DNA from: Romanomermis culicivorax
Taxonomy: Eukaryota; Nematoda; Enoplea; Mermithida; Mermithidae
Length of the DNA: 64,000 nucleotides
Reading direction: 5' to 3'
Assembly: GCA_963922205.1 (NCBI GenBank)
Contig: CAWUHX010000157.1
Coordinates: 749,001 to 813,000 of the forward strand
Shown here: in pieces, positions 2,241-39,855 of the stretch
Layout: every line of letters starts with the position of its first letter
Position numbering within the stretch: position 1 is the stretch's first letter
The notes under the pieces: generated by a model
What the model was told of the DNA's origin: nothing
The model's database searches: none
Seen by the model: only the letters and a program-made list of their open reading frames with translations
Made by a program: the position numbers and the translations under genes

Positions 2241-2534
2241 ATTAAATTTTTTTGGTAATTTTATCGGCGGATTAAACGCTGATTAATTGAATCCAGGATT
2301 AAAGCAATCCATAAGTTTGTCAGCTGATTAAAGCTTGATTATCAGAATCGGCAATTATAATAATCCGAGTTTTCTTTTTTTTGTAAATTTTTGGGTTACA
2401 TCTACCCATTTTTCTATAGCTGGATAGGCAGGCTTTACAGGACTATACAGTGATACAAGTGCCCACCTTATATGAGAGGCCCTCTTTGGGTGCTTTTTAC
2501 TGCCTAGTGGAGGCCACACACACTCCACAGGCTA

Positions 2535-2921
2535 GGTTAACTGACAACTGAGCGCCTGACAATTGAGCGCCGACAATTGAGCGCCGACAACTGTGTGCAG
2601 ACTTAAGCCTGAGCCTAAGCCAAAGCCTAAGCCTAAGCCTAAGCCTAAGCCTAAGCCTAAGCCTAAGCCTAAGCCTAAGCCTAAGCCTAAGCCTAATCCT
2701 AAGCCTAAGCCTAAGCCTAAGCCTAAGCCTAAGCCTAAGCCTAAGCATTGTCTTGGCACTCAGTTGTCACCGCACTCAGTTGTCGGTGCTCAATTGTCAG
2801 CACTGTTGTCGGTGCTCAGTTGTAAGCGCTCAGTTGTTTCAGCACTCAGTTGTCACGGCGCTCAGTTGTCTGGCCCTCAGTTGTGGGCACTCAATTGTTA
2901 GCGCTCAATTGTTGGGTCATG
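2535..2921. mobile_element. Telomere-repeat foldback element, copy 1
   Basis: The left arm is a run of GACAACTGAGCGCC-type units. The right arm is the same unit inverted (GGCGCTCAGTTGTC). Between them lies a run of about 24 GCCTAA units. The element interrupts a SINE, whose undisturbed text can be read at 34,570, so the insertion point is certain. CACAGGCT is present on both sides (2,526-2,533 and 2,922-2,929), giving an 8-bp target duplication, or 9 bp with one mismatch. There is no protein-coding capacity: open frames through it are (KP)n or (LR)n artefacts. Architecture and TSD length suggest a MULE-like or other foldback DNA transposon; the superfamily is inferred. Confidence 0.8.
2605..2748. 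repeat. Interstitial telomeric repeat (GCCTAA)n
   Basis: About 24 near-perfect GCCTAA units, the complement of the nematode telomere repeat TTAGGC, form the core of the foldback element. They do not lie at a chromosome end or a simple fusion point, because the array arms and the target duplication enclose them. Confidence 0.95.
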
Positions 2922-3321
2922 CACAGGCTGGCATCTGCCTGACAAGCAGGACTTGATCGGCTACCTACCTCATAATGGAATAGGCCGACCTCCCCATTCG
3001 CCTCACTATCGCCAACATGCTAATTGGGCTGAGTGGACCTGGGCAAGCTGCGTTTCAAGCTCGCCAACACACCCCAAGAAGATGAAAAGCGGTGTCTGCC
3101 TGCTCCAGCTACCAGAAATTCCATTTCGAGAGGCACCCCGAATCAAACCTGGTTCTTGAGACTAGCAGTCAGAGGCGATAACCACTAGACCAAGACGGCC
3201 TAATCCGAGTTTTCAATCCTCCTCTATCCTGGGTCTGAAAGGCCAATTATATCCGTTTTTGCCATTGCGTAGTCGGTTTAGTAGTTGAAAAATAATTGTT
3301 GTTGATTTTTTGCAGGATCTA

Positions 3322-4214: not shown

Positions 4215-4754
4215 TGTTGTAGCGTGTTTCCGCCGATTTTGTCAATCCCCGAATGAGGCCCGCAAGTGTCAAGTGGAGTGAGCGACGCGGACCATCAACA
4301 GTCGTCTTACTGTAGCGCACATCGGTACGCGTGCATTGGCTCTCTCTCATTGGTGTATTATTCATATGTTTTGTTATAGCGTGTGCCCCGCTGGCCACAA
4401 TATCTTTACTAGCCGCCTCCCGGCACGCACGTCTTTATTTGTTTTTCTCCCCAGTGCGTGGGAGTGAATCGTCTGTATTCTCGCCCCGTATCCCTTGTAA
4501 GTAAGTGTTTTTCGTTTTTGTAAGATAAAATTAGAAAGGTCTCTCCTTTCCAGTTTATATTTAATTGGGGAGACAATTAAGGAAACATCCTTTCCTTAAT
4601 TGGTAGGGTCATTAGTGTCGGGTTTAAGTACAAGTAATTAAGTTAATCGGGTAAGCATGGGCGTGGGAAATACGTGCATTAATGACGAACCCTGGAATCC
4701 CAATCCTGCCTGAACAGAAAAGCCCAAAGCCCAGACTTATTTCCAAATACAACA
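4215..4754 (+). mobile_element. Solo LTR, TGTTG family
   Basis: It begins TGTTGTAGCGTGTTTCC and ends AAATACAACA, so it has the TG...CA ends of an LTR. Shared landmarks with the other copies are CGTCTTACTGTAGCGCA, GGGAGACAATTAAGGAA and AAGCATGGGCGTGGGAAATACG. Length is 540 bp. The flanks GGAG and TGAG are a 4-bp duplication with one mismatch. No internal retrotransposon sequence adjoins it. Confidence 0.85.
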
Positions 4755-5045
4755 TGAGGCCATACCTGCAATTGGGGGGACCTACCCAACTTGGCAAACC
4801 CTATACCCTACCCCCTAACTTGAAAAAATTCGCAAGAAAAGTGTATTTTTTGGCCTTTTTTCGAAAAATTTTCGACTTTTTTCGACCACCCCCAGAATTT
4901 CGGGTTTACCCCCCCCTCAACTAGTCGGACTCTTACAAGTATGTCCGAGGCCTAACTCATCCACCTGCACAACACATCCCTAAATTCACAAAAATGTAAA
5001 AACTTGAAATTCGAGCATACTGTACTGCTTTACCGGATTACTGTA
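4755..5045. other. Intergenic sequence, nothing recognised
   Basis: This lies downstream of the potassium-channel stop codon. It would include the 3' UTR if exon 4 is terminal. I see no convincing AATAAA signal on the minus strand close to the stop. Confidence 0.4.
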
Positions 5046-5412
5046 CTACTGTAGAAATTTTCTACAATCCTCACTTGCGGACGGCACCGACGCCCTATTC
5101 ACAATGGTCAACATGCCGAACAAAGTTTTCAAAGCTTCCCGTTTTTTCTTCCTATATTTGGCTCGTTGGATGACGTTCAAATAGTCGGCGTTTTCTTGGG
5201 CCACTCGGCCTAATTGGTGTATTTTATGCACGTATTGCAAACCGACAACGTCGACGCACATCGTGGCGACAATCAAACCGAACAAGATGTATGCTATGGA
5301 GACGGGCTCGAAATTTCTATTTGTGGGTAATAAATCGCCGAAACCTACTTTCAAAACGCTGGTCACCGAAAAATAGAGCCCGTGCAAAAATGACCAATTC
5401 GATTCGTAATAG
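5046..5412 (-). CDS. K2P channel exon 4 (pore 2, M4, C-terminal tail)
   Basis: The acceptor TTCAACAG is followed by [15 protein letters not shown], then [14 protein letters not shown] (filter 2) and M4. The tail [11 protein letters not shown] is typical of nematode TWK channels. A TAG stop lies at 5,046-5,048. A better-than-random donor (CGCAAGTGAGG) lies about 25 nt before the stop, so this exon may in truth be spliced onward. Confidence 0.92.
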
Positions 5413-8400
5413 CTGTTGAATGATAGATAAAATGCTAAATTTGATTTGATGTCTACAGCTACAGTATACTCTTGCGGATGTCGGATACTGTAATGATACA
5501 GTAAACCTAATTTTCATATCATACGTCAATTTCAAAAAACCACACTACAGTACTTCTACTTGTCAAAAACGTAGTTCGCAAAATATCGTCGAAAATCTAC
5601 AGTAACCAATCAGTACAGGGAAATTTCGCCATTATAACATCTTGATCATTTTTTCGAAATTCTATTGACAGTAATCTTGCGTAATTTGAGTCTTGCTGAC
5701 ATCAGAATAAACTTCTAAAATTTCTTGAGACGTGGTACGCCAAACGATGGTCTATAAGATCTACAGTATGGAGGAAAATTTCCTACGATTATGTACCTGC
5801 TATCCGTCTTAAAAAATGGAATTCTACAGTACTCTCGATACTGTAAACTCGACTTGTTGAGGTGTAGAAAAGCTTCCTATTCTTATTTCATAATAAAGCG
5901 GCATGCTAGGCATGATGCAAGATCAACAGTAATCAATCGATGCAGGAAAATTTCTCACAATTACCTGCTGATCTTTTTCAAAAAGTGCCACGCTACAGTA
6001 CTCACGCATAACCTTACATGAACATAAATCTGTCGAAACACAGACAATTATGAGCAAAATTTTGTATACTGTATTATCCTGATCAGTTGTGTTACCCTAA
6101 TTTGAGCCTTGCTGACGTCAAAAAAAGCTCTCATAGATTTCAAAATTGAAACATGCAGGATCTTCAATAGTCAATAGGTGCAGCGAAATTTCTCACAACC
6201 ACTCCTGCTGATCATTTCCAGAAGGAACCAAACTACAGTATCCCAACATGATCAACCTCAATCTGTCGGACAGAAATAACTACAGTCAACTCAAAGTACT
6301 ATTTTCTATACTGCACCGGCTGATCAGCTATTATACTGTGTTCGTAACCTTGCTGACGTCATAAAAGGTGACGTGCATCGCGCGTTGTCAGATCTACAGT
6401 AATCAAAAAAATTTCTCACGACCATATACTTGCTGATCATTTAGAAAAAGCCACGTTAACGTATTCTCAGCCTTGCTGACGTCATGCTGGACGTGAAGCT
6501 GGATCTACAGTAATCAACAGATGCAGGAAAATTTCTGGAGACTTTCTACCTGCTGATCATTTTTAAAAGGCCGCGCAAACTTATTCCCAGCTTATTTTTT
6601 AACGGATTATCTACAAAAAAGCAACGTTAACGTAATGTTTGGCTTTTTGACGTCGTAGAAGATTTTTATCTAAACTTTACAATGAATTGGCATGCTACAG
6701 TAATTAATCGATGCAGGAAAATTTCTCGCGACTATGTACCTGCTGATTTTTTCAAAAAAACCACATTAATGAATTTTCAGCCTTGCTGACGTCATAGAAA
6801 GTTTTCATCTAAATTTTACAATGAATTAACATGCTAGCCACGGAATCTACAGTAATTTGTTGATGCAGGAAAATTTCTCATGACTATGTACCTGCTGATC
6901 ATTTCAAAAAATCTATCTGAACGTATTCTTAGCCTGTTGACATCTTGGAAGCTTCTCATCTACATTTAAAGATGAAATAGCATGTTAGGCATCATGCTGG
7001 ATCTACAGTAATTAATCGATGCAGGGAAATGGCTAACGGCTATTTACTTGCTGATCATTTTAAAAAAAGCTAACGTGTGACAGGCTGAGCATCATACTGG
7101 ATTAACAGTAATCAATCGTTGCAGGAAAATTCCTCACGACTATGTACTTGCTGATCATTTCAAAATAGCCACGTTAACATATTCTTAGCTTTCCTAACAA
7201 CGACTATGTACCTGCTGATCATTCCAAAAAAAGGCACATTAACGTATACTTAGCCTTACCGACGTCAAAAAAGATGAGATGCTGAGCAACATGCTGGATC
7301 TACAGTAATTAATTGACGTAGGAATATTCCTCACGATTATGTACCTGCTGATAATTTCAAAAAGACTAGCTTAAGGTATTATTAACCTTGCTGACGTCTT
7401 GGAAGCTTTTCATCTAGATTTAAAATTGAATTAGCCTGCTAGGCATCATGCTGGATCTACAGTAATTAATCGTTGTAGAAAATTACTAGCGACCATTTAC
7501 TTGCTGATTATTTCAAAAAAAGCTAACGTATTCTTAGCTGCCTTGCTGACGTCATAAGAGGTGACATGCTGAGCAACGTGCTGGATTGACAGTAATCAAT
7601 CGTTGCAGGAAAATTCCTCGCGACTATGTACTTGCTGATCATTTCAAAAAGCTATCTTAACGTGTTCTTAGCCTTGCTGGCATCCTGGAAGCTTCTCATA
7701 TAGATTTCAAAATGAGTTAGCATGTTAGGCATCATGCTTGATCTACAGTAATCAATCGATGCAAGAAAATGGCTAATGACTAATTACTTGCTGATCATTC
7801 CAAAAAAGACACGTTAAAGTATACTTGACCTTACTGAGGTCATAAGAGGTGACATGCTAAGCAACGTGCTGGTGTTGTAGTGTGTTTCCGCCGATTTTGT
7901 CATTTTTTGTCAACCCGCTCATGAGGCCCGAAAGTACCAAGTGGAGTGAGTAACGCTGACCATCAACAGTCGTCTTACTGTAGCACATGTCCGTACGCAT
8001 GCGCTGGCTCTCTCCTTGTGCATTATTCTTATGTGCCTTATAACATGTGCCCCCATTAGTTATATTTCGTACTCGCTGCCTCCCCCACACGCACGCCTGT
8101 GTTTGTGTTTTCTCTCCAGTGCCTGGGAGTGAAATTGTTTTCAGTCTGGCCCGGTTTAAGTACTGTTAGTTAAGTTAATCGGGTAAGCGTGGGCGAGGGA
8201 AATACGTACATTAAGGACGAATCCTGGAATCCCAATCCTGCCTGAGACTCAAACCCCCTGACATATCTTTGAATACAACACTGGATTAACAGTAATCAAT
8301 CCTTGCAGGATAATTGTCCACGACTATATACCTGCTGATCATTCCAAAAAAGATACGTTAACATATACTTAGCCTTACTGACGTCATAAAAGGTGACATG

Positions 8401-11400
8401 CTGGGCAACATGCTGGATCTACAGTAATCAATCGTTTCAGGAAAATTCCCCACGACTATTTACCTGCTGATCATTTCAAAATAGCTACATTAACATATTC
8501 TTAGCTACAATAATAACATATTATTCTTACGTTAGCATCAATCCGCCGAAACACGAATAAGCCACAACAATAATTAGCAACAGGGTTGCCGGAACTTTTA
8601 CGTAATGAACCGTATCTATGTTGCTCCATAGATATTCGGCCATTTTTTCCGTATTTTCTTCTACACCCGCAGCTTCGACCGGTCCTCCGTCGTCCACTGC
8701 CGCTGCCGCCATTGATTTTCGGCTCGAACGCCGCTCGGCGAAAAAACGCCGCGTTTTTAGCCTCAAAAACGAGCCAATTTTGTATTTGAGAGTTAAATAT
8801 TCGACGTAAAAAGCGTTGACGACCGAAGATAAAAATTTGGCCACGTCGGTGGTGGTCAAAATAAGGAGCGGAATGCCCACTATACAGTAAGCGATGAGGA
8901 AAATTTTGCCGTTTTGAGTACTGGGTACTAAATTACCGTAACCTGTACAAAAATGAAAGTACAGAAATTAAACTACAAAAAATGAACTACAAAAAATACA
9001 CTACAAAAATGAAAGTATAAACACGTAAGTATAAAAATTAGAGTTAAAAAATCAAAGGACAGAAATCTAATTCAAAAATTAAAATAGACAATAATAAATT
9101 GAAGTTCACAGAGAAAATACGAAACTGAAACTGCAAAGATTAAAGTACAAAAATGGAAGTACAAAAATCAAAGTACAAAAATGGAAGTACAAAAGTTAGA
9201 GTGAAAATACTAAAGTATAGAAATGAAACTACAAAAATTAAAATACAAAAATGATAATAGAAAAATAAAAGTGCAGAAATGAGCGTAAAAAACGAAAGTA
9301 CCAATACCAAAATTGAAGTTCAAAAACTGAAGTACAAAAATGAAAGTACAAAAAATGGGGTAAAAAATTAAAGAGAAGAAATGAAAGTACAAAAATGAAA
9401 TACAAAAATTAAAGTAGACAACAAATAAAGGTTCACAAAAGAAAATAAAACACTGAAAGTACAAAAAATAGAGTAAAAAATTACAGAGATGAAAGTGCAA
9501 AAATTAAAGTACAAAAATATGCAAGTACAAAAATTAGAAAGAAAATATAAAAGTACAGAAATAAAAGTGCAAAAATTAAAATACAAAAATTATAATAGAA
9601 AAATAAAAGTACAGAAATGAGCGTAAAAAACGAAAGTACCAATAACAAAATGGAAGTACAAAAAATGAAGTACAGAAATTACAGTACAAAAATCAAAGTA
9701 CGAAAATGAAAGTACAAAAGTGAGAGTACAAAAATGAAATACAAAAATTAATGTATACAACAAATGATGGTTCACAAAAGAAAATACAAAACTGAAAGTA
9801 CAAAAATTGGAGTAGAAAATTACAGAAATGAAAGTGAAAAATTAAAATACAAAAATGATAATAGAAAAATAAAGTTACAGAAATGAGCGTAAAAAACGAA
9901 AGTACCAATAGCAAAATGGAGGTACAAAAAATGAAGTACAGAAACTACAGTACAAAAATCAAAGTACGAAAATGAAAGTACAAAAGTGAGAGTACAAAAA
10001 TGGAATACAAAAATTAATGTATACAACAAATGATGGTTCACAAAAGAAAATACAAAACTGAAAGTACAAAAATTGGAGCAAAAAATTACAGAAATGAAAG
10101 TGCAAAAATTAAAGTACAAAAGTGGAAGTACAAAAATTAGAAACAAAATATAAAAGTATAGAAATGAAAGTACAACATTAAAATACAAAAATGATAATAG
10201 AAAAATAAAGTTACAGAAATGACCGTAAAAAACGAAAGTACCAACACCAAAATGGAAGTACAAAAACTGAAGTACAGAAATGAAAGTACAAAGATCAGTG
10301 TATAAACATGAAAGTGCAACAATCAAAGTACAAAAATGCAAGTACGAAAATGAAAGTACAAAAATGAGAGTACAAAAATGAAAGTACAAAAATGAAAGTA
10401 CAAAAATTAGAATACAAAAACGAAAGTTCAAAAATGTATGTAAAAAATGAAAGTGCAAACGTTGGAATAAAGTACAAAAATGATAGTAGAAAAAAATATT
10501 GAAATGATCAAACAAAAATGAAAGTATCAAAATGAAAGCACAAAAACTAAAGTACAAAAATTAAAGTACAAAAACGAAAGTATATAAATAACAAATATAG
10601 CGCCGAACATTGAAGTACAAAAATGGAACTACAAAAGTGAAGTACAAAAATAAGTGTACAAAAATAGAAGAACACAACGCATAGAAGTACAGAAATGAAA
10701 GTACAAAACAGAAAGCGCCAAAATGAAAGTAAAAATGTAAGCACAAAAAATAAAGTACAAAAATTAGAGTGAAAAATGATGGTAGAAAAGTAAAAGTACA
10801 GAAATAAAAAATGCCAAAATGAAAGTGCAAAAATGAAAGTACAAAACTGAAAGTAGAAAATAAAAATATAGAAATGAGGGTACAAAATGATAGAAGAAAA
10901 ACGAAAGTACCAAAGTGGAAGTAAAAAAAATTAAAAACGAGAGTATTAAAATGAAAATAGACAAAAAAAGTACAAAACTGAAAGCACAAAAATTAAAGTA
11001 CACAAATTTCAGTACAAAAAAAAATTACATAAATGAAAGTAAAAAATAATATTACATCTATAAGAGTAAAAAATTAAAGTATAAAAATTGAGTACAAAAA
11101 TAACAGTAAAGTAAAAAAATGATCACCATCCGAAAAATGTAGACGATGATAATAATCTTGAGAATATGAAGACGAGATCAATATTTTGAACTCTGGATGC
11201 AGATCTCAAAATATGAGAAAATCGGGTGACGACAAAAATACAATTATAATTCTAGATTATTTTGGAGAGAAGATTATAGAATGAAATGAAGCAAATGAAG
11301 ATCAAGAAAGAAAAATTAGAATTTAAATTTAGCACATAATAGAAAAATCCTGGGCCTAATAAAAACATGATCTAAATGTTCAACAGAAAAGTATAGAAGC

Positions 11401-14400
11401 ATATCATAGTGAAGTTTTCAAACTGTGGAGAGATCAATAAAATGGAAAAAGAAGAGAAAAAACGCAAAGAATAAAACAAAATAGCCGTCAAGAAAAGAAA
11501 AATGACGTTAAAAGTATGGAAAACAATCAAATCGAGATATCAAAAAAATAATAAAAAGCATGAAAGAGAAAGTAAAAAAATAATATGCAATCCAAAGTGA
11601 AATATGTGACCATGATATCCTGATGAAAATCAGAAAACTCGCAACAAAGAAAAAAGATAAAGATCAAATTTAAAATAGGACCAAAAACTAAGGGAAATCG
11701 AAAAAAGATGGAGGCAGATCAATATCTGAAATAAAGAAAATCAGGATCATGATTATCAGGGCATAAATATGAACATAAACACTAAAGAGGGTAGAATAGC
11801 TCAAAAACATGCAAAACATACAAATCAAAAACAAACAAAAACATAACATACAGAACCCATATAGTATGAGTGGGGGAAAAATCGGGTCAAATCAATTCGA
11901 AGATAAAAAATATCGCACACAATCAAGATGAAAAAGAAAGAATTAAAAATTCAAGATTGATTAGAATTGTGAATATTTCCAAATTGAGATGAGCATGAAT
12001 ATCAAAATTGTAAGAAAATATGAACAGGTATAATCGAAAAAGTAAGTAGAAAACACGAAACCAGAAAAAAACAAAAATAACGACGATAAAAAAAATAAAC
12101 AATTATCAGAAAAACGGAGGAAACAATAAAAAATTGCGAAAAATTCAAAGATCCATAAAAATAGCGAAGCAAAAGCAAAAGATAACAACAAAAACATGAA
12201 CCTGCAAAATTAAAAAACGTCAATAAATTACAAAAATTATAACAAGAAGTAAAAAGTTCATACAATGGCATAAAGGGCAAAAAAATAAAAGAAACGAAAT
12301 ATAAAAACACAGAAATAAACCAAAAATAGAAATCGATATAAACAAACAAATTAACAAACAAAACAAAATAAAAAAAACAACAGATGAAAGAGCATAAGAC
12401 AACATCAAGAGAAAAGTTAGAAGGCATCAACAAAAATAAGCATAAATGCAACAGTTAAAATGTAAGTTAAAACGGAAAAGCTAAAAAAGCACAAATACAG
12501 AAATCAAACAACAAATAATATGAAAACAAATGCAAAATAATGATAAAAAGGCAAAAAATTGAAACCAAGTGTAACGCATAGGATTTTGGGTATTGGACTT
12601 GGAAAATAGGATAAATCCATGCCGAGCAGTTCAAAAATGATGTCAATTCTGTTCTATAGTATGCCGACATTACTCTAAAGCATACTGTAGTTTAGGAAAG
12701 TTTACAAACACTTTTAGAGGGGTTACGAATTGCTTATTGTTCGAAGAAGCCAGAATTTTGCTTATTTGATATGAAGTTAAGTTGATAGAATGGCTGATCA
12801 GTTTCCTATTGTTTTGATTTTTGAATTTTGATTTTTTCTCATATATCCCAAGAATTTGTCGGAAGTCGAATTTTACCCCTTGAAGCTTTGAATACTTCCT
12901 AAATGGAAGTATAATTTTATGAGTTGAAGCTTTGGACGTACTTTCTACACCCCCGTATCAACCCACCCACATTCTTAATGAAATTCGAATTGTATTACAT
13001 GGTCCACTATACTTTCTACACCCCCTGTATCCCCTCACACAAGGCAGCAAACCTTGATGTATATGTTTTGCAGAAGGGTATCTTTTGTGTACACCCTTAA
13101 TGTGCCTGTATAACTTTTCCCTCTCCCATCCCCCTAAAAATCAAGGGCCCCCTCTGTTGTAGTGTATTTCCGCCCATTTGTAGAATTATCCCCATGTTTG
13201 TCAATTTTTCGAAGAGGCGTGCAAGTACGGAGTGGAGCGAGTGACGTGGACCATCGAGAAACGTCTTACTGTAGCCCAAATCAGCATGGGTGCGTTGGGT
13301 TTGCTCTCGCATTATTAGTGCTATATGTTTTTTGCATTGGTCCGCCTCCCCGTGCGCAAAGAATATTGGTGTTTTCCCCCAGCACGTGGGATTTTTATAT
13401 TATTCTCGCCCACTCACATTTTGTATGCCTATGTGTTATTTTGTGTTAGATAAAATTTGGAGAAGATCCTCTCCTCATTTTTATTACATAATTGGGAGAC
13501 AAATTAAGGAACTAGGTTTTCTTAATTTGTGGGGTAATTGTTGTCAGGTTTAAGTACACTAGCTAAGTAATTAATCGGGTAAACGTGGGTGTTGGAAATA
13601 CGTGCATTAAGCACGAATTCTGGAACCCACACCTGCCTGCCTCCATTCCCGAAACCCCAACCATTCTAAAATACAACACCTCTGCCAGCAAGCCTTGACC
13701 TGAGAAATCCACCTTGAAGGCTTAACGTATATATTATTTACAGGGTGAGCCAAAAAAAGGCGACTGGTACTGATTTTCATAGCTTTCAAATCGGTGAAGC
13801 TTTTTTAATGCAGTTTCATGCCGCCGATAGGTAAAACATCTGGCATAAAAACTGCAAAGTTTCAGCCGGATTACTCGAATATTGACAGGCAAGAATCAAA
13901 AATACTAAACGTCGGTTTTTTTGCAAGTAAATTTTGAAAAATTGACAAAAATTGACAAAATCAACATGTTTTACAACAAAAAGTACGATACATCAAATCA
14001 TGAGGACCATATAATAGCTAGAAACTACAAGAGAGCCGTTTTAGTGTGTCCTGCTTACTATAATTTTAATCGTTTTTCGATCTGGTCAATGACAGAATTG
14101 ATTTTGTTTCGATTTTGTTTTTTTTTCCAATTCCAAAACAAATGCTCTTGATTTTAGCGAAATTTTGTCCCATATTAAAACAAGAAGTTAATGACTTTAA
14201 ATTACGTGTAACTTACAAATCTGGGAGACTTTTAAAGTATTGTTGTGTGTAAAAAGCTTCACAAAACTTTCCTCACTAGGAGGCAATAGGTTAACCGACA
14301 ACTGAGCGCCAGACAACTGAGCCCCGTGACAACTGAGCGCCAGACATTTGAGCGCCAACAACTGAGCACCGACTATTTAATGCATTATAATTGAGCGTTT

Positions 14401-17400
14401 TTTTGAAGCCTAAGCCCTAAGCCTGAGCCTAAGCCTAAGCCCTAAGCCTAAGCCATTAAATAGTCAGCGCTCAGTTGTTGGCGCTCAGTTGTCTGGTGCT
14501 CAGTTGTCCGCGCTCAATTGTCGGCGCTCAATTGTCTGGCGCTCAATTGTCGGGTCATGCAATAGGACAACTTTTACTTTGATTTCAAAATTTTTACTTT
14601 TTGAAAAATGACCACTTTTACTAAATTTTTGCTTCTACAGTAACCATAACCGCTAAGAGCATAAAATTTGGCCTTTTAGCAAAGATAAACTGGGCATTCT
14701 AATGCAGCAATGCGCATTAAAAAAAATTTATCCGTTCAAAAGTTATGGAAGTCAGCACCGGTCGTCTTTTTTTTGGCTCACCCTGTATACTTTTTTTTTT
14801 CAAGATGGGATCTTGATTTTTTTTCAAGATTATCATCTTGAAACAAACAACACGATACAGTTGAAAAAATTGTGATTCACTTGAAAATAAAGTCGAACGT
14901 CGGAAAACACTCTTGAACTTTTTTATTATGCATCTTGAAATTTGTGCGAAGCATAGCTTGACATTTCTGCGATGCATATTTGTTGTATTTGGAAATAGGT
15001 TGGGAGCTGATGAATTAGGGAGGATTGGGATCCCAGGGTTCGTCCTTAATGTATGTATTTCCCATGCCCACACTTACCCGATTAACTTAACTAATAGTAC
15101 TTGAACCGGACACTTATTACCCTACCAATTAAGGAAAGGTACTTCCTTAATTGTCTCCCGAATTAAAATAAACACAAAAAGGAAACCTTTCTTCAACTTT
15201 TACCTTACACAATAAACACACTTACTTACAAATGAGGCTGGTCGAGAATATAGGAAATTCACTCCCACGCACTAGGGAGAAAAACAAACAGAAATGGGCG
15301 TGGGGGGAGGCAGCGAGTATGTTATATAACTAATGGGAAAAACGCACGTAATAAAAAAAATACAAAAGAATAATGCACAAGGAGAGAGCCAGCACATGCC
15401 TACCGTCGTGTGCTACAGTAAGACGACTGTTGATGGTCGGGGATGCTCGCTCCACTTGATACTTGCGGGCCTCATGCGCGGGTTGACAAAAAATGACAAA
15501 ATCGGCGGAAACACACTACAGCACCCCTCTCCCCTTGCGGTAGATCGCCCTAAGCGATCGTCAAGAAATATCCAAAACGTGCAAGGGGAAAGGGTACCGC
15601 CACTACAGGCGGTCACCGGGGTGGCGGAAGGGATCTTTGGTATCATGCAGCGGGGCCGACGGAGTCGTTGCAGTTGTTTAAGCCGATTTTGAACGGTGCG
15701 TAGGGTGAGACCTCCCAATGCATGTCGCAACTAGCGAGGCCATAAGTTCGGCAACACTGCAGCTTGCGTTGTCACTCCGTCCGCACCCATATACTGGAGT
15801 GCACCAGCATACAACGCCATGCGGATGGGAGGGTGAGGCCGGCCACTACGATGATGGTGATAATCGGAACAGGCACACAAGGCGGCGGAGGAGACATAAG
15901 GACAAACGGCGCAAGTGTGGGCTTGTGGCGGTAGAACAAGTCGAGTCATCTTACTGCGTGGTCTTAGCATCGGCTGCACGGGCGCTGGGAATACTAGTAC
16001 AAAAATAAAGCACAACAAAAGAGATTAGAAAAAACAAAACAACCGGTATGAACGAGGTTAACGAAAACAAAGAGGAAAGAAAAACAAGAAGAATAATACA
16101 CAAGGAGAGAGCCAACGCACGGGTACCGACGTGTGCTACAGTAAGACGACTGTTGATTGTCTGCGTTGCTCGCTCCACTTGGTACTTGCGGGCCTCATGC
16201 GGGGGTTGACAAAAAATGACAAAATCGGCGGAAACACACTACAACATATTGAAAAAATGTTCTGCATCACATTCGAAGGTAACAATTTTTTTTCGAGTGG
16301 TAACAAATTTTTCCCAGTAGTGATCATTTTTTTCAAGTGGCTGTACTCGCATTCTGTACAGTGTACTGTAGTGTAATACCTGATTACTGTAGAAAAAAAC
16401 CTAAATCATTTTCAAATTTCCTGGAAACAAAAAATTTACCAATCGTCAACAGGGTGGACGTTATGAAAAAAATTGCCGATTCAAAATTCCATTCGTTGAT
16501 CCAATCACTATTGATTTCTTCGTCGCTCGAATCGCCACCGCCGGCCAAATTTCTAGCCGATTTACTGGCACGGTGAAGTTTGTGCATTTCGACGATGAAA
16601 TCGTCGAATTTTCGACCAGCGATTTGATCGAAAGAAAATTTATCATGTTTCAATTCGATGGACAAACGCGTCAAATCGTCCAACAAATCGTTTTGAAAAT
16701 GTTTAATTTTTTGAGTACGATTTTTTTGTTGTTCTACGAAAGTTGGTTTCTCCAAAGCGATTAAAATCAAAGCGCCGCTGATCACGTAAATCAAGGACAA
16801 AAGCCATAGACTGGCGTGGGGCCAAACGACTTTTAAAGCCTGAAAAGTTGGAGTTGAGGATTCTACTGCTCCATGTTGATCTAATTCTTTTTCCTAAGCC
16901 CTTTCCTTACCCCTTATCTGCTTATCTTTATTTTACCCTTAATACCAGTATCCTTATCCTTATGATTATCCTCATCCTTTTGATTCTCTTCATCCTTTTG
17001 ATTCTCTTCATCCTTATCTTTACCCATATGATTATCCTCAATACCATTATCCTTATCCTTATGATTATCCTTAATACCATTATCCTCATCCCTCTGATTA
17101 TCCTCATCGTCATCCTCATCCTCATCCTTATCGTCATGCTTATGCTTATCCTTACCCTTATCCTTGCCCTGACACGTATTTTTAGTCTCGTCTTCATACC
17201 AACTCCTAGAGTAGGCAGGAACTCAAAGAGTGGTTCAGGAATTGGTTCAGTAGTTTTGGAACTCATAGAGTAGACAGAAAATCCAAGAGTTCTTCAGCAG
17301 CTCCCACGAACTCCTAGAGTAGTTCAGAAACACCTAGACCAGTTTAAGAGTTTCTACTTCAGGATTTCCTGGAGTAATTTATGAACTGCCAGGGTAGTTA

Positions 17401-19850: not shown

Positions 19851-20190
19851 AGATTATCGATTGTGTCTCACTTTGGCGCCCATCTCACTTTGGCGTCCGT
19901 CTCACTTTGGCGCCCATCTCACCTTGGCGCCCGTCTTACTTTGGCGCCTCGTCTCACTTCGGCGCCCAAGCTGTGTCTCACTATGGCGCCCATCTCACTT
20001 TGGCGCCAGTCTCACTTTGGCGCCAGTCTCACTTTGGCGCCCGTCTCTCTTTTGCGCCCGTCTCACTTTGGCGCCCGTCCTACTTTAGCGCATTGTATGT
20101 CCTAATAAACAAGCAACGTGTCTTCATCTATGCAAATTTTACGCGCATTTTTGCAAATGGCTATAAATAGTTCAGGCCACCCTGAATAGC

Positions 20191-20211
20191 TCTCTCTCTC
20201 TCTCTCTCTCT
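20191..20211. repeat. (TC)n microsatellite
   Basis: An uninterrupted run of about ten TC dinucleotides inside the foldback element. Confidence 0.95.
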
Positions 20212-20214
20212 AAA

Positions 20215-21130
20215 TGGTGGAAAATAAAATAATCAGTTATGGTGCCAAACTTCACTGAATAAAAACACTTTTCATAAAACCAAAATAGCTGATTTCGAGG
20301 AAGCCCGCTTTATCCTATCTTTGCATGGTCAAATTTTAATTTTTGTTTGTGAAAGTAGAATTAATCCGGATTATTTTTATTTGCTCAAAAAGAAAAAAGT
20401 GAAACGATTAGCCATCGTTGGTGAAGTCATGTACTTCGAATGCATTTCTTGCAAGAGTCATGGGAATCCCATGGGTCATGACACAGTTCATGAGTGAGGA
20501 TGCAATCAAATCCGGATCACGGTCACAATTCACTTTGCATGCCTCTTACCAGTCCAAAATTAAAGCTAAGCATATCAAACCTGAAATGATTTTTTATTTT
20601 TTTTCTAATTTTTCACTAATTTTTTTTACCATGCGAATTTTATGCGAAATCCTACAATTTACAATGTTCTCCGGGAAAATTAGCAATTTACATAATGCAA
20701 TATAAAAATAGCCTTCGTCTATTTTTGGGGAAACGGGATTCAACAATTTTGAGGAATTGGAAGTTTCAAGAAAAAGCTTTGAAGCATTCTTCTTGGGAAG
20801 AGGAATTTTGGGGAAACTTAACCTTCAGGGAATGATGTGTCACATGCCGACGAATTTCGTCCAAGGTCACGTGATTCACATCACAATTTTTCGTTATGTT
20901 TTTCGTTACGTTTTGTATTACAGTAATTTGCATCAATTTTGCGTTTCGTTTTTATAATTTTTACATGCAATTTATGTGTGTACTTTTTATGTTTCGTTTC
21001 TGTTTCATTTGCCCACATTTTATTTCCGTTTCAATTTATTATTTTCCATCGCACGCGTAGTCTTCGGTATGTACCCGCTAGTCAAGAATTTCTGTTAGAG
21101 ATAAGCTCTCCGAGCTCATCGCTGTAATTG
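20215..21130. other. Interior of the foldback element, nothing recognised
   Basis: AT-rich sequence without a recognisable coding motif or repeat. Confidence 0.4.
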
Positions 21131-21339
21131 GAGCACAATGTGCACCTCTTATCAGTAAAAACTAGCGACGTTTCACAAGGTGAAACAACTAGTTTGAAAT
21201 TCTCACTAGTGACGTTCCTATGTTAAGCATGGAGAGTGAAAACTCACCCCAATGCTTAAGGTTGTGAACTGGAAAATGTCTATGTGACCATAGGCATCTT
21301 CTGCAATGATTTCCACAGCAGAAGTTAGCTTGGGGGAGT

Positions 21340-22260
21340 GTTAACTCCGCCCAAGGCATACTGTAGTTTATGGAGCCCTTTAAAAGGGCATGTTTTGTCA
21401 TTTTTGTGTCTTATTCCAACTCATTATTGGGCCTAACTGGTGTTTTGTCTTTTAGCCTTGCGTCCGCGTTTGCCATTCGTCAACTTTTATTATATTTTAT
21501 ATTGTCTACTGCGTTCGCCGCTCGTCGAATAAAATTTACATATTCTCGCCTCCAGCCTCCTTATGCATTACCAATACAGTAACCCGACCGTAGGAACCCG
21601 TCCCCGTCACTGTTAATCGAATACCCCCATCCCCCTCACTGAGGAAACGTTTGTTACCACCACCTGCCGATCTGTAGCAGTATTACCCTACGCCAAATCG
21701 CCCGGATTCCCGTTCCCACTCATTGCTGTCCGTAGGACCCGCACTTTGACCCCAGAGCCCATCGCCCAGCGCCGATTAGTTTGAGAAGAGGTTTCGTAAG
21801 TCTTCTCAGGGGTTATTATTGTTGAGGGTATATTTGTGGGAGTCTCCCCTAAGCTAGTTTCTCTCGGAAGTACCCTCAGTTGAGAAAGCCCTCAGACCCT
21901 TGAGGTCAGGGCCAATAAGGGGATTTAGGTTAACAATCGGGTCCCCTACAGTATGCCATTCTGCGAATGGCACCGTCCCTCATTCTCAGTGAATGGGGAC
22001 TAGGGATTGGCACCCCTGACCTGGCCGCGTTGTCCATTATTCTACAGCATAACCCTAGGACAAGGCCGAGGTACACCATAGGTTTACCTGTGGTAATACC
22101 AGCTGGGTTAAGTTCCCGAAGTAGATAAACCAAAAGGAACCACCCAACGGGGTCACAGCATGCCACTTCCAGTGACATGACTATATTTTCTATGGGATAT
22201 GGTATGGGTTTCCCATCAATGTGACTGATCACCAATTCAGTTAATGTGACATTGCTCCCA
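21340..22260 (+). mobile_element. LTR-like segment, unclassified
   Basis: It starts with TGTTAACTCCGCCC, has a TATA-like CCTTTAAAAGG at about 21,379, AATAAA at about 21,527, and then markedly more GC-rich sequence. This is the order of promoter and polyadenylation signals in an LTR followed by internal sequence. The ends cannot be fixed and no coding domain is recognisable, so the call is tentative. Confidence 0.35.
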
Positions 22261-22610
22261 ATTTCTACTTAATGTGACAGATGATTCACGCAAATAAATG
22301 GTCAGCATGAATGCCAAAAAGTAGACTATGATAAGCCGCCAATGTGAGATGGGTGCCAAAGTGAGACGGGCGGCAATGTGAGATGGACGCCAGGTTAGGA
22401 CATCCAAAAAAAGTCGTTATTAAACAATGGGAGCCAAAGTGAGATGGGCGCCAAAGTGAGACGGGCGCCTAAGTAAGACAGTGGTCTCACTTTGGCACCT
22501 ACAACGTTGGACGCCAAAGTGAGACGGGCCCCAAAGTTAGATGGGTGCCAAAGTGAGATTGGCGCCAAAGTGAGACTGTACCAGATTATCAGCAGGAAAA
22601 AGCGCAAATT

Positions 22611-30069: not shown

Positions 30070-31960
30070 CAAATTGACTTTAATTTATTGCCTTTTGATA
30101 ATTTATCCAGATTTCGACTCAGTGATGAACACATCAATTTGTTAATCGATGAATTACAGCCATTTATTGAGCATCCAACAAAACAAAATGTTGCTCATAC
30201 TGTGGAACAACAAATTCGACTTTCTTTACAATATTTGGCTACAAATGGGGACTTTAAATTAATTGGTGATGCTCATGGGGTTCACAAGTCAACTGTATCA
30301 TGAACATTGAAGAGATTTGTGGATGCTGTTAATGATAGAATTTTGGCAAATGTTGTTAAATGGCCAGAAAATTTGCATATTACTACGAATAAATTTTATA
30401 AATTTGGAAAGTTACCCTGTGTTATTGGATGTGTAGATGGAACTCATTGCGATATTATAAGGCCATTAGAAAATGAAGTACAGTATGTCAATAGGCACAG
30501 AAATAATTCAATTAATGTGATGTTAGCATGTGGACCAGACTTGAAATTCTATTTTGTTTCAGCTAAATGGCCGGGTTCAGTAAATGATGCTCGAGTTTTC
30601 TGCAACAGCAATTTGTCCCAAAAACTTGGAATTGACTGGAAACCTTATCATGGATGCTATTTGTTAGCTGATTCTGGTTACACCAATTGGAACTATGTAC
30701 GTTTAGACTTGTATTGGATGGGGCAATGTGGTGAGTGGCCGACCGTAGAGGAAGCACACCTACAGTAACTCAACCCCCACACTAGAAAAACTAGTACACA
30801 GGAGAAGAGGAATGGTGGCACCCCGGATCTAGGCAGAGATCAATTTGGAAGTCCAGGCCAAACTACATTCGTGATCGTACCAGTAGCCTGAAAAGGAGTG
30901 CCCTGCCGAATGGATTGTTCAAAGTCGCCGTCACCTGAAGAACCTGGTAGGGGCAGGATCACATCTTGGAGGGGGTAGCCCCAAAAATTTGTTTTCCGAG
31001 GGGAAAACTGTTATGCAGTCAGGGCCTCAGTATGAGGCTCAGGCTGCAGAGAAGTTTTCACCTCCCATCGATCGGTTTTGAGGGCCGAGGAATGTCGGGA
31101 TTGCCGTGGGTGCACGTGTTCAGCTTCCGGCGTCGGTGTGCAGGTGGTAGGATGCGGCGAAAAGTGGCGGAAAGAGAAAAAGAAAATTTACATAGATGTA
31201 TGCAGCCACTGTTTCGCGTGTTTATTTATATTTTTTATTATTATTGGAAATTGACTATGGGTGCATCGCCGCCATTTGCTTTATACTATATTTTGATTTT
31301 ATTGTATTGGTGTCACCCTTTGTTTTCCCAATACAAGCTGCAACGGTAACTTGTACTGTTTTGTGAGCCTAGTGGAGGATTTTATAAGGTTAGGATTGGA
31401 GACTTGGGTAGGAGCTCCTGAGGTATGTGCCAGGGTGTTCTGCCTGAGGTTTGGTGAAGTACTGGAGTGTATCTGGTGAAAAGTGTGAAAGAGTTTTAGT
31501 TTATTGTATTTTGTTAGCCTGTGGTCAGGACTGTTGCAACTTCCTTTTGTATAGACCCAAAGGTCAGTTACATCATCTTGACCCCGCAGCAGCCTAACAT
31601 GATTCTGGTTACACCAATAGGAACTATGTTTCAATGCCAGTACTTAATTGTACAACTGATCAAGAAGAACACTTTGATAGAGCCCATAAAACAGTTGGAC
31701 GACTAATTGAATGAGCAATTGGAGTTCTTAAGCAGAGATTCCGTTGTTTATTGCAGCAAATGCATTTAGATCCAATATCAGCTTGCAAGGTAATATTATG
31801 CTGCCTTGCCTTGCATAATATGCTAATTACAGACGAAGACTTTTCAGATGCTCTGGATTTTTTACCAAATGAAGGAGGTGCTAATTTGCAAGCTGAAAAT
31901 GAAACTAATTTACATGAACCTGGATCTGTTCGAAGACGTCAAATTGTGGCATTGTTCTGA
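30070..31960 (+). pseudogene. PIF/Harbinger transposase (HARBI1-like), broken
   Basis: The frame starts near LPFDNLSRFRLSDEHI and includes the helix-turn-helix region ending HGVHKSTVS. It then has the DDE nuclease domain: GCVDGTH (first Asp, about 30,430), VSAKWPGSVNDARVF, LADSGYTN (second Asp), and after an interruption VGRLIE..IGVLKQRFRCLL (glutamate region) and CCLALHNMLI, the C-terminal signature of the family. Inactivating changes are a TGA at 30,301 after KSTVS, a second TGA at about 31,711 after GRLIE (both sit where CGA Arg is expected, so C-to-T decay is likely), and a 902-bp insertion at 30,699. The intact enzyme would cut at TIRs and make 3-bp TWA duplications. Confidence 0.88.
30699..31600. 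mobile_element. 902-bp insertion in the transposase gene, bounded by a 29-bp direct repeat
   Basis: A 29-bp segment beginning GATTCTGGTTACACCAAT occurs at 30,670-30,698 and again at 31,601-31,629 with one mismatch. The transposase frame (DSGYTN.NYV) is interrupted exactly there and continues after the second copy. The insert contains TGTGGTGAGTGGCC near its left end and CAGCAGCCTAACA at its right, which could be LTR-like tips, but a 29-bp target duplication is too long for an LTR element and fits target-primed insertion or a template-switch better. No gene is recognisable. Confidence 0.7.
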
Positions 31961-33964: not shown

Positions 33965-35045
33965 TCATTGCAATTTGCGAATTCCAAGCTCTAATTTTAT
34001 ATTTTGTAAAGGGATATTTTCACACCTTAATGCAGTCTCATCAATTTTGATTTCCAATTTTCGGCATTTCAAGTTGTTGTATTTTTGTTCCAATGTTGAA
34101 CCACAATCCACCGGTTGATGTAAACGCCTCTTATTAATTTTTTGATCAGTTTTTCGAGTAAAACTGGCAACCGGCATATCTGATGATGACGAATGTTCCA
34201 TAACAGTAGAAATTGGTCGTAGTCCTGCTTCAGACACATTAAGGCCTTCAACTGCTGGTGATTCGGAGCCAATAATATTGAGAACTTTCAAATCAATTTT
34301 GGAATATTTCACATCAGCACTACCTGCTGCTCAGGTTTTTTGTTTTGCATCTCTTTTTCTCATAGCATAATTTTTAAAATTCGGCTAAATAGAATCTCGA
34401 ATGTGGCTCCAAGGCTTATCAGTTGCAACAGGATAAAATCCATAAAAAATTTTCTTGCCGGTACACCTACCCATTTTCCTTTAGCCAGAAAGGCAAGCTT
34501 TACAGGACTATACCACCATACAAGTGCCCACCTTGTATGAGAGGCGCTCTTCGGGTGCTTTTTACTGCCTAGTGGAGGCCACATTCCACAGGCTGGCATC
34601 TCCCTGACAAGCAGGACTTGATCGGCTACCTACCTCATAATGGAATAGGCCCACCTCCTCTTTCGCCACACTATCGCCAACATGCTAACTGGGCTGAGTG
34701 GACCCCAGCAAGCAGCATTCCAAGCTCGCCTGCACAATTTATCTACCCCGAGAGGATGAAAGGCTGTGTCTGCCTAGGCCAGCTACCAGAAATTCAATTT
34801 CAGGTTACACCCGGAATCGAACCTGGTTCTTGAGACTAGCAGTCAGAGGCAATAACCACTAGACTAAGACGGCTCAATCCATAAATTTGTGCGCAATCAT
34901 CAATAGTGCTTTTCCAAGCTGTTATCTTATCTTCTTTGGTCAAAGTATCAGAAAATGATCCGAATAAAATAATTTTTTTGGAATAAATCAAGTCCAGAAA
35001 AATTAAACGTTGATTTTCATTCCTTTTCTTAAAAAGTTAGACTGA
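33965..35045 (-). pseudogene. Harbinger-associated Myb/SANT-like protein, broken
   Basis: The minus-strand frame opens NQRLIFLDLIYSKK, ILFGSFS and LTKEDKITAWKSTIDD, the helical Myb/SANT-like domain found in the second protein of Harbinger transposons, which binds DNA and helps bring the transposase to the nucleus and TIRs. It is cut by a SINE at 34,447-34,875 and resumes with FYPVATDKPWSHIRDSI, then a TAG, a Lys-rich stretch and a TGA, and finally a 110-residue tail rich in K, N and E that ends at 33,965. It lies tail to tail with the transposase. The family assignment combines motif and context. Confidence 0.75.
34447..34875 (-). mobile_element. tRNA-derived SINE, copy 3, best preserved
   Basis: On the minus strand the head reads AGCCGTCTTAGTCTAGTGG (A-box TAGTCTAGTGG), then TGCTAGTCTCAAGAACCA and a perfect B-box GGTTCGATTCC. 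The 430-bp body follows. A 10-bp duplication, AATCCATAAA on plus (34,437-34,446 and 34,876-34,885), flanks it, and the interrupted Myb frame closes perfectly when it is removed. The head most resembles an Asp/Glu/Gly-type tRNA by its A-box. The copy serves as reference for the family. Confidence 0.92.
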
Positions 35046-37112: not shown

Positions 37113-37494
37113 CTAAAATACAGAAAAAGTAGAATTTCAGAATACATACATATCAAATGTCTGAATATTTTAGACTTTCAACATATTAGAGCTAATTCCT
37201 TCACACAACATGCCCTATAATGATTATTCATGGACAAAATCTAATTGCAATAATTTTTTTTACAATTATTCTAGAAACTAAATTTTTCAACTCAAAAACA
37301 GTTAGGGTTAGTTGAGTATGATCAAAAATTTGGTGTCTAATACAACATATTATGATTTAGCAAAAAATGGAAAAAAGATGAAATAGTACTTGCTTCTCAT
37401 TCTTAATATTTGTAATACTTGCAGGAAAACATAGTATAGTTTATGCTATGCCTAATATCATAACCTATCTATGACCTTATCAACCATACTTTTC

Positions 37495-38281
37495 GGTGCA
37501 CCGACAATTGAGTGCCGGACAATTGAGCGCCGACAACTGAGCGTCGAAAACTGAGCGCCGACAACTGAGCACCCGACAATTGAGCGCCGACAATTGAGTG
37601 CCGAGAACTGAGCGCCAGACAACTGAGCGCCGTGGCAATTGAGCGCCATGACAACTGAGCGCCAGACATTTGAGCGCCGACAACTGAGCGCCAGACATTT
37701 GAGTGCTGACAACTGAGCGCCGACTATTTAATGCATTATAATTGAGCGTTTTTTTCATTTACTGAGCGCTACGGAATACTAGCATTTCAGTGATTATCTA
37801 CCGTAATGATTATCTACCGTAATGTATATATGTCCATACGTCTAATATTATGAATCAAACAAATATGGTCATTTTTGATTCGTATGACAAAGCCTAAGCC
37901 TAAGCCCCTAAGTCTAAGCCCCTAAGCCTAAGCCTAAGCCCAAGCCTAAGCGTAAGCCTATGCTTAAGCCTAAGCCTAAGCCTAAGCCTAAGCCTAAGCC
38001 TAAGCCTAAGCCTAAATGCAAAATAGTTACTTCAAACTGATTGGGTTATTTATCTGACATTAAATAGTCGGGGGTCAGTTGTTGGCGCTCAGTTGTCGGC
38101 GCTCAGTTATCTGGAGCTCAGTTGTCTGGCGCTCAGTTGTCTCCGCGCTCAGTTGTCGGCGCTCAGTTGTCGGCGCTCAGTTGTCGGTGCTCAGTTGTCA
38201 CGGCGCTCAGTTGTCTGGCGCTCAGTTGTCGGCCCTCAAGTGTCGGCGCTCAATTGTCCGGCGCTCAATTGTCGGGTCACG
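37495..38281. mobile_element. Telomere-repeat foldback element, copy 3, longest
   Basis: The left arm (37,500-37,735) has about 15 units of ACAACTGAGCGCC type and the right arm (38,070-38,275) about 14 inverted units. The core has AT-rich sequence and a GCCTAA array (37,890-38,014). ATACTTTTC, nine bases, is duplicated exactly at 37,486-37,494 and 38,282-38,290. The ends read GGTGCACCGACAATTG on the left and, inverted, CGTGACCCGACAATTG on the right, close to copies 1 and 2. Confidence 0.9.
37890..38014. repeat. Interstitial telomeric repeat (GCCTAA)n, with variants
   Basis: About 20 GCCTAA units, the first half degenerate (CCCCTAAG, GCGTAAG, GCTTAAG) and the last ten nearly perfect. Confidence 0.93.
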
Positions 38282-38439
38282 ATACTTTTCTATTGCAGAC
38301 TTATTTTGATGCTTCATCCTCTCAATAATTCAATACACGAATTTTCTGAATTTAATGGCTTTCAGAACTCCATATTTAGACCAAATAAAAATGGTCAATG
38401 ATTATTTTATCAAGTGAACTAAACCATGCAGTGATGTGT

Positions 38440-38820: not shown

Positions 38821-39510
38821 CGCCCCCCCCCAAAAAAATTTCTGGATCCGCCACTGGGTGTTACCTTAGCACACTAGCCAAAAATGTGCCCTCAGAACAA
38901 CTTGTCAATAGTGCAGGAATCATCTTTCAGCCATTACCAAATCATATTTCAGATAAATCAGTGGAGAAACTATTATTTTTGAAGTATAATTTCATAAAAT
39001 TTTTCAAATAAGAAAAAAAATGTGTGCATTGGATTAACACTGTTATTGAATAAAGTTTTCATTACATCAGCATTAAGTTTATCTTCTCATGGAGTTGGGA
39101 ATTCTACAAAAATTGTAAAATTCATCCAAAAATCCCAGTTTTGGTTTCATTTTCACGGTATTGGGTTCAGTTTCATACAAAATGATGGTTTCCACGGTTT
39201 CAGTTTTGGTTAACCTGAACGTACCTATTAAGATCTAACTAGTTTGAATCTTTGCTCAACTACTTTTCTGTTGTTACTCTCCTTAAACCCACTTGTAAGA
39301 CAGAAAAATTTGGATCACACTTAAAACAGTGAAAAGTAACCCCCACTCAACAAGCAAATAGTTGCACATAGTCCACTAAATCTATGTTAAAAAATTGTTT
39401 GGCTGACAGAAGTTCATTTTTTCATCATCAAGAATGCAAAAAATTTGACTCCAATAGAATTTCTATGCTGCACAAGTATGCTAAGATATCATCTATTTTT
39501 CACACCTTAC

Positions 39511-39855
39511 AAATTCCATCAATTCTTCCATATTCATATTCATTCTTTCTTCAATTTTCACCAGACTAATAAACAAATCGGCCAATCCGGATATAAATAT
39601 CGTACGACTTTTCGAATATTTCAAGGAATCTAAAGCGTTGAATAACGGCGTCCAAAAACAATGTTCATCGCCGGCCCAAATCCGACCGGTCATCAATAAC
39701 AGGGTGTCTCTAATGACTGGTGTTTTTATTTCAAAGTCCAATTTATTATCATCCGTTTGTTCACTATTTAAATTGATACTCAAATTGGGACTGTAATTGA
39801 TCTCCAAAAGCAAAGGTTTACAGTCACTGGTCAACAGTATGTCGAAGCCGAGAAT
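39511..39855 (-). CDS. TTLL exon 5 visible
   Basis: The acceptor CATTTTCACAG precedes ILGFDILLTSDCKPLLLEIN, the last catalytic segment, then SPNLSINLNSEQTDDNKLDF and IKTPVIRDTLLLMTG. It ends EELMEF at donor TTT/GTAAGG. The downstream C-terminus was not found. Confidence 0.93.

Follow-up and report, generated by a model that had tools for sequence, protein, structure and literature searches.

Foldback elements carrying telomere-type repeats at internal sites in the mermithid nematode Romanomermis culicivorax

The window, that is, the whole stretch of DNA analysed here, comprises 64,000 nucleotides (G000:C157:749001-813000) of the mosquito-killing mermithid nematode Romanomermis culicivorax and contains three foldback elements of one family, named F1. 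A tubulin-tyrosine-ligase-like exon of the window has a single protein hit, in R. culicivorax, with 100% identity over 93% of the query. All three share a plan in which forward units of about 14 bp (GACAAYTGAGCGCC) lie on the left, a (GCCTAA)n tract lies in the centre, and inverted units lie on the right. A sequence-only reading had described the first element (copy 1) as inverted arms around a (GCCTAA)n core and had reported two further copies of the same plan; copy 1 was found to occupy exactly 2535-2921, and the other two lie at 14289-14559 and 37495-38281. The elements and the sites associated with them are as follows, with F1 junction types (A to D) assigned by eye.

2526..2534, no strand: target-site duplication of copy 1, left (CACAGGCTA), 8/9 identical to 2922-2930
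2535..2921, + strand: copy 1, whole F1 element, GGTTAACT...GGGTCATG, junction type D, scored from the element ends
2543..2598, + strand: left arm of copy 1, 4 units of about 14 bp
2604..2746, + strand: telomere-type (GCCTAA)n tract of copy 1
2755..2913, - strand: right arm of copy 1, 10 inverted units
2922..2930, no strand: target-site duplication of copy 1, right (CACAGGCTG)
14289..14559, + strand: copy 2, whole F1 element, GGTTAACC...GGGTCATG, junction type C; only CAATAGG is common to the flanks
14406..14454, + strand: telomere-type tract of copy 2
34440..34890, no strand: uninterrupted relative of the short interspersed element (SINE) hit by copy 1; CACAGGCTG occurs once, at 34587-34595
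37486..37494, no strand: target-site duplication of copy 3, left (ATACTTTTC), 9/9
37495..38281, + strand: copy 3, whole F1 element, GGTGCACC...GGGTCACG, junction type A, full core
37890..38015, + strand: telomere-type tract of copy 3
38282..38290, no strand: target-site duplication of copy 3, right (ATACTTTTC)

A chance origin of these clusters was ruled out by shuffles. The arm unit GACAACTGAGCGCC matches 48 times in the window (up to two mismatches) against 0.15 expected, and (GCCTAA)3 matches 38 times at the same tolerance against 0.00 expected. Every match of either kind in the window is confined to three clusters. Copy 1 sits in a repeat with a tRNA-like end, recognised by eye as a SINE, and CACAGGCT stands on each side of it, as had been noted; in the register of the element ends, however, this corresponds to a 9-bp duplication that agrees at only eight of nine positions (CACAGGCTA / CACAGGCTG). 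Copy 3 is bracketed by a perfect 9-bp duplication (ATACTTTTC); random pairs of 9-mers from the window agree at all nine positions in 18 of 200,000 cases. When the flanks of copy 1 were joined with one 9-mer kept, they aligned to the SINE at 34.4-34.9 kb with 84.6% identity over 442 columns (score 615), compared to a best score of 45 among up to 200 random window segments. The SINE that had been put forward as a readable pre-insertion site is a related uninterrupted copy and not the locus of copy 1 before insertion.

Genome-wide searches covered an assembly of 595 contigs and 359,112,060 bases. Two adjacent F1 arm units gave 816 + 708 matches and the F1 right terminus CAATTGTCGGGTCAYG gave 93 + 105 exact matches (198) at scattered sites, with a control count of 0 in each case. 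Two samples of copies were read. The first 100 matches of the two-unit pattern, listed without use of telomere repeats, fell in 14 places on contigs C1-C7 (L013, L014, L022, L049, L050 twice, L053, and L057-L063). On the right-terminus list, places 1-8 were copies already read by their arms, and six of the following nine were then read. The three left out (C8:1608554, C12:863510, and C14:119240) each had a tract or a tract fingerprint (see below) already known beside them, and L069, one of the six read, was likewise known beforehand to adjoin one or the other. A GCCTAA tract was present in 14/14 arm-listed places and in 6/6 terminus-listed copies. Arms and tract thus occur together in 20/20 copies read outside the window, and in 23/23 when the window copies are included. 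Judged from whichever element ends are present, the tract has one orientation in all 23, with GCCTAA running from the GGTGCACC/GGTTAACC end toward the GGGTCAYG end; for L059 and L063, 12 bp in the opposite orientation were also counted within the tract.

The ends of F1 are sharp, with GGTGCACC or GGTTAACC on the left and GGGTCAYG on the right, and the left 8-mer is palindromic in both of these subfamilies and in copy 1 (GGTTAACT). Across 15 copies, the arms hold 4-21 forward units and 6-16 inverted units, the commonest unit spacings being 14 (143), 15 (109), and 16 (56), and the most frequent bases of 359 units give CGACAAYTGAGCGC. Fifteen two-ended copies could be scored for 9-bp duplications in register, of which 11 are perfect and copy 1 is at 8/9. 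Two of the six terminus-listed copies have both ends recognised, each at 8/9, so that overall 17 copies were scored, with 11 perfect and three at 8/9. No match to two adjacent F1 arm units was found in collections of viral and prokaryote contigs, and copy 3 had no match in a plasmid collection.

The tract itself carries marks of common descent. Eight copies (copy 3, L013, L014, L049, L053, L058, L059, and L063) belong to junction type A, with a full core and the same tract junctions; their core flanks (207-225 bp) diverge by 0.4-4.5% (mean 2.1%), and their tracts range from 37 to 457 bp. An irregular 32-bp fingerprint (CCCCTAAGCCTATGCCCCTAAGCTTAAGCCCC) lies within the tract in five of these eight, of which four have it exactly and L049 differs at one position; it is not found in copy 3, L013, or L014. 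In the genome, CCCCTAAGCCTATGCCCCTAAGCTTAAGCCCC has 28 + 32 exact matches (60; control 0). Thirty of these are on contigs within the terminus list (to C178). In 14 of the 30, an exact F1 right end follows within 1 kb downstream on the same strand; in no case does one lie on the opposite strand, and the chance expectation is approximately 0.0003 per query. A second signature (AGCATAAACATA), located immediately within the right boundary of the tract, is common to six type B copies, and neither signature occurs in 23 non-F1 loci checked. The presence of irregular fingerprints in unlinked copies shows that the tract was inherited through transposition, as opposed to fresh addition by telomerase or break repair. 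Junction types A-D show trimming of the core on both sides with its orientation kept. Perfect 9-bp duplications, together with tract fingerprints common to unlinked copies, show that F1 has spread by transposition. The sequence-only reading had proposed as much for the telomeric repeats, as opposed to end fusion or break repair, and had tied this to target duplications and to joint occurrence of arms and tract across the genome; in the samples read, all of this held for F1, which contributes only 6 of 31 sampled tracts.

A source of transposase was sought among loci with the MULE domain (PF10551), which has at least 122 genome matches, with 150 of 248 candidates scored. In five MULE loci that were read, units of the form GACAATTGGGTGAAY make inverted arrays in L064, L066, and L067 and a left array in L068; L065 has none. 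L067 codes for both FLYWCH (1.2e-12) and MULE (5.8e-16), each domain in its own open frame, and has a 9/9 duplication (CCCTCTGCC). L066 has a MULE domain, no FLYWCH match in the frame searched, and an 8/9 duplication (both duplications scored by eye), and one end is palindromic in both L066 and L067 (GGGATCCC). A transposase-encoding relative, which the sequence-only reading had proposed to look for, was found as a sister with related arms. Since no MULE domain was seen in F1 and sisters with related arms have one, F1 is best read as non-autonomous and presumably served in trans.

The closest known system is Tm1, the Mutator/Foldback family of Meloidogyne, which belongs to the Phantom subclass (PMC3169594). 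As described there, Tm1 resembles F1 in having composite inverted arms that contain a variable number of units, mostly 14 bp long, short motifs that flank the arms asymmetrically, mostly non-autonomous copies, and target duplications of 8-10 bp, mostly 9 bp, compared to 9 bp in F1. The outer motifs of Tm1 are 7 bp long (A1, CGGTTAA; A2, CCTACCC), whereas the F1 ends are asymmetric 8-mers; by eye, GGTTAACC of one F1 subfamily and A1 have GGTTAA in common, and CRTGACCC of F1 and A2 have only ACCC in common. The FLYWCH and MULE domains of the Phantom layout are found in autonomous Tm1-A and, here, in the F1 sister L067 with another arm unit. The two families differ in the unit itself (CGACAAYTGAGCGC in F1; motif C consensus CGATTCAGTATCGC in Tm1) and in the core: the main text of the Tm1 paper contains no word starting with 'telomer', whereas a telomere-type tract is present in every F1 copy read (PMC3169594). 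In published layout, F1 can also be likened to Drosophila FB and Tetris, Arabidopsis FARE, and Galileo, all with long inverted arms that contain internal repeats; of these, Galileo is linked to a P-element transposase and FARE to a MULE transposase (PMC3169594).

Internal telomere repeats have been described in other animals. C. elegans has internal TTAGGC tracts, as does R. culicivorax in F1, and the C. elegans TALT regions, blocks flanked by telomere tracts that spread to chromosome ends without telomerase, show that telomerase mutants can recruit such tracts to their chromosome ends (PMC4595603, PMC9071541). Mammalian interstitial telomere sequences likewise place telomere repeats at internal sites, but they are described as inserted singly at breaks, whereas F1 tracts were copied with a transposon and have fingerprints in common (PMC2246262). 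By titles and abstracts, no nematode transposon family with a constant telomere-repeat core was found in the literature. In the available texts, 'telomer' occurs twice in the 2024 assembly paper for R. culicivorax, both times in one reference title (PMC10879605), and is absent from the 2013 genome paper (PMC3890508). Overall, F1 is very probably a non-autonomous foldback transposon family of the Mutator/Phantom type with a GCCTAA tract in its core, in one orientation in every copy read. The finding is well supported: F1 is of a kind already known, the Mutator-type foldback element, and has an unusual telomere-type cargo in every copy read.

Several observations weigh against this interpretation. 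Regarding target duplications, copy 2 agrees at only 1/9 positions in register and has only the shifted 7-bp repeat CAATAGG, and L013 and L053 are each at 5/9; all three improve when shifted by at least one base and were counted as failures. The left end was not recognised in L069, L071, or L073 (the last extends past the fetched stretch), and in L062 and L072 the element is broken at the tract and only half of it remains, one copy being without its right half and the other without its left, which suggests that breaks, too, may occur at the tract. Tracts of L057 and L062 are only 18 bp long. An exact F1 right end within 1 kb is missing for 16 of the 30 fingerprint matches; among these, two belong to L058 and one to L063, which are F1 copies with a right end that differs by one base. 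With regard to transposase, none was found inside F1 arms, GCCTAAGCC is absent from all five MULE loci (L064-L068), the transposase-bearing sisters use the different unit GACAATTGGGTGAAY, and the nearest MULE match is approximately 12 kb from any of the 100 F1 right ends listed, of 198 (by eye).

F1 is not the sole source of interstitial tracts. In the genome, (GCCTAA)4 has 14,795 + 14,221 matches, with overlaps counted, and (GCCTAA)4 followed by a non-G base has 307 + 310. From the first places of these two lists, 31 tracts with at least four perfect units were sampled on contigs C1-C5; six lie in F1, three in a family named F2, three in F3, and two in F4, and 17 are unassigned. The possibility that all interstitial tracts lie in F1 was rejected, as the first three listed tracts were without F1 arm arrays. 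In a separate count, an exact F1 right end follows no more than 1 kb downstream of 12 of 75 tract ends (hand-merged from the first 100 listed), with no case on the wrong strand; two of the 12 are in one element. Many of the first 100 listed are on C4, C8, and C27, one is on C7, and none is on C16-C18.

F2, F3, and F4 are families with their own terminal inverted repeats (TIRs), unrelated to F1, and a GCCTAA core, and they account for 8/31 sampled tracts. By eye, an 8-bp duplication is perfect in 3/3 F2 copies (L011, L020, and L030), perfect in two of three F3 copies and 7/8 in the third (L017, L031, and L037), and perfect in one F4 copy and 7/8 in the other (L015 and L019). An inner marker of F2 that adjoins the tract has 23 exact genome matches, and F3 also holds a tRNA-like stretch (by eye). 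Because these families were discovered through their tracts, the tract may be common or rare within them. Nonetheless, several DNA transposons carry telomere-type repeats in this genome. A broader reading can be offered only tentatively, at somewhat less than an even chance of being correct: unrelated non-autonomous DNA transposons (F1, which is of Mutator type, as well as F2, F3, and F4) may have taken up telomere tracts on repeated occasions and may now spread them. A major source of interstitial tracts in this nematode would then be transposition, as opposed to end fusion or break repair. A telomere core might even favour such elements, for instance by binding telomere proteins or by spacing the arms.

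For F1, the proposed sequence of events would begin with a single capture of telomere DNA by one ancestral foldback element. A Phantom-type transposase, either the FLYWCH-MULE protein of the sister elements or another as yet unseen, would bind the F1 arms, and the element would then be moved by cut and paste, with 9-bp staggered cuts and with its tract included, to new internal sites. Tract length then changed quickly, ranging over 37-457 bp in copies that diverge by 0.4-4.5% in their core flanks.

Other origins of the tract can be considered. An account that is compatible with transposition of F1, but is rather unlikely, is that hairpins or cruciforms broke at palindrome centres and were healed with telomere DNA, so that elements gained tracts independently and were transposed afterwards. 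Such healing would fit the central position of GCCTAA units in four unrelated TIR families, as well as the locus L009, in which a 98% palindrome (4492-5080) has (GCCTAA)4 and (TTAGGC)3 at the inner ends of its arms. Inverted repeats scoring above 100 surround 6/31 sampled tracts compared to 5/600 control positions, though five of the six are F1. However, within F1 the tract is inherited and not regained, 17/31 tracts were assigned to no family, most of them with inverted repeats that are weak or absent, and no tract-free mates of F2-F4 came to light among copies that were themselves found through their tracts. These counts, and those for scores above 40 (10/31 compared to 29/600 controls), weaken the view that most tracts are enclosed by strong inverted repeats.

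A further account, which is improbable, treats the tract as a plain hexamer microsatellite that belongs to the element and does not derive from telomeres. Tract length does vary as that of a microsatellite would, and a perfect 198-bp tract, which has 2959 + 623 genome matches (3582), was at no contig end among the 100 matches listed, the closest being approximately 4 kb from the start of C25. On the other hand, the unit is identical to TTAGGC, the telomere repeat of nematodes (PMC9071541), and the same hexamer is found in at least four unrelated families. TTAGGC presumably caps the chromosomes of R. culicivorax, judging from other nematodes. Finally, separate placement of each tract by telomerase or break repair has a documented counterpart in primates and rodents, where flank deletion is commonest (50% in rodents and 52% in primates) and duplication also occurs (4.6% and 16%, respectively; PMC2246262), and the at least four F1 junction types, which indicate repeated shifts of the tract edges, could be cited in its favour, but for F1 it is very improbable and largely refuted by the fingerprints in common, to which the single orientation in 23/23 copies, the same junctions in eight type A copies, and 9-bp duplications that bracket the whole unit of arms plus tract can be added.

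Transposition of F1 thus provides a concrete source of misplaced internal telomere repeats in one worm, and its signatures (9-bp duplications and tract fingerprints) can be sought in any nematode. The abundance of interstitial telomere tracts was termed a mystery in a 2022 review, and in C. elegans they are able to initiate DNA synthesis at ends that are uncapped and to participate in TALT (PMC4595603, PMC9071541). A transposon that plants tracts would therefore also plant possible sites of rearrangement and end repair.

The window contains several other features. At 19851-22590 lies a second foldback-like element, with arrays of a 17-bp unit (GTCTCACTTTGGCGCCC) at 19865-20091 and, inverted, at 22337-22578, around a 2.2-kb core; AGATTATC is present on both sides, and no telomere tract was seen. 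Six frames of this element (19.86-22.58 kb) gave no Pfam match above the cut-off of 25 bits (best 15.6 bits). An open frame at 30304-30768 has a DDE_Tnp_4 domain (Pfam, 1.1e-16), and we take it to be perhaps a fragment of a Harbinger-like transposase. Exons of a potassium channel-like gene (Ion_trans_2) are found at 5046-5513 and 8527-8967, and those of a tubulin-tyrosine-ligase-like gene (TTL) at 39493-41950.
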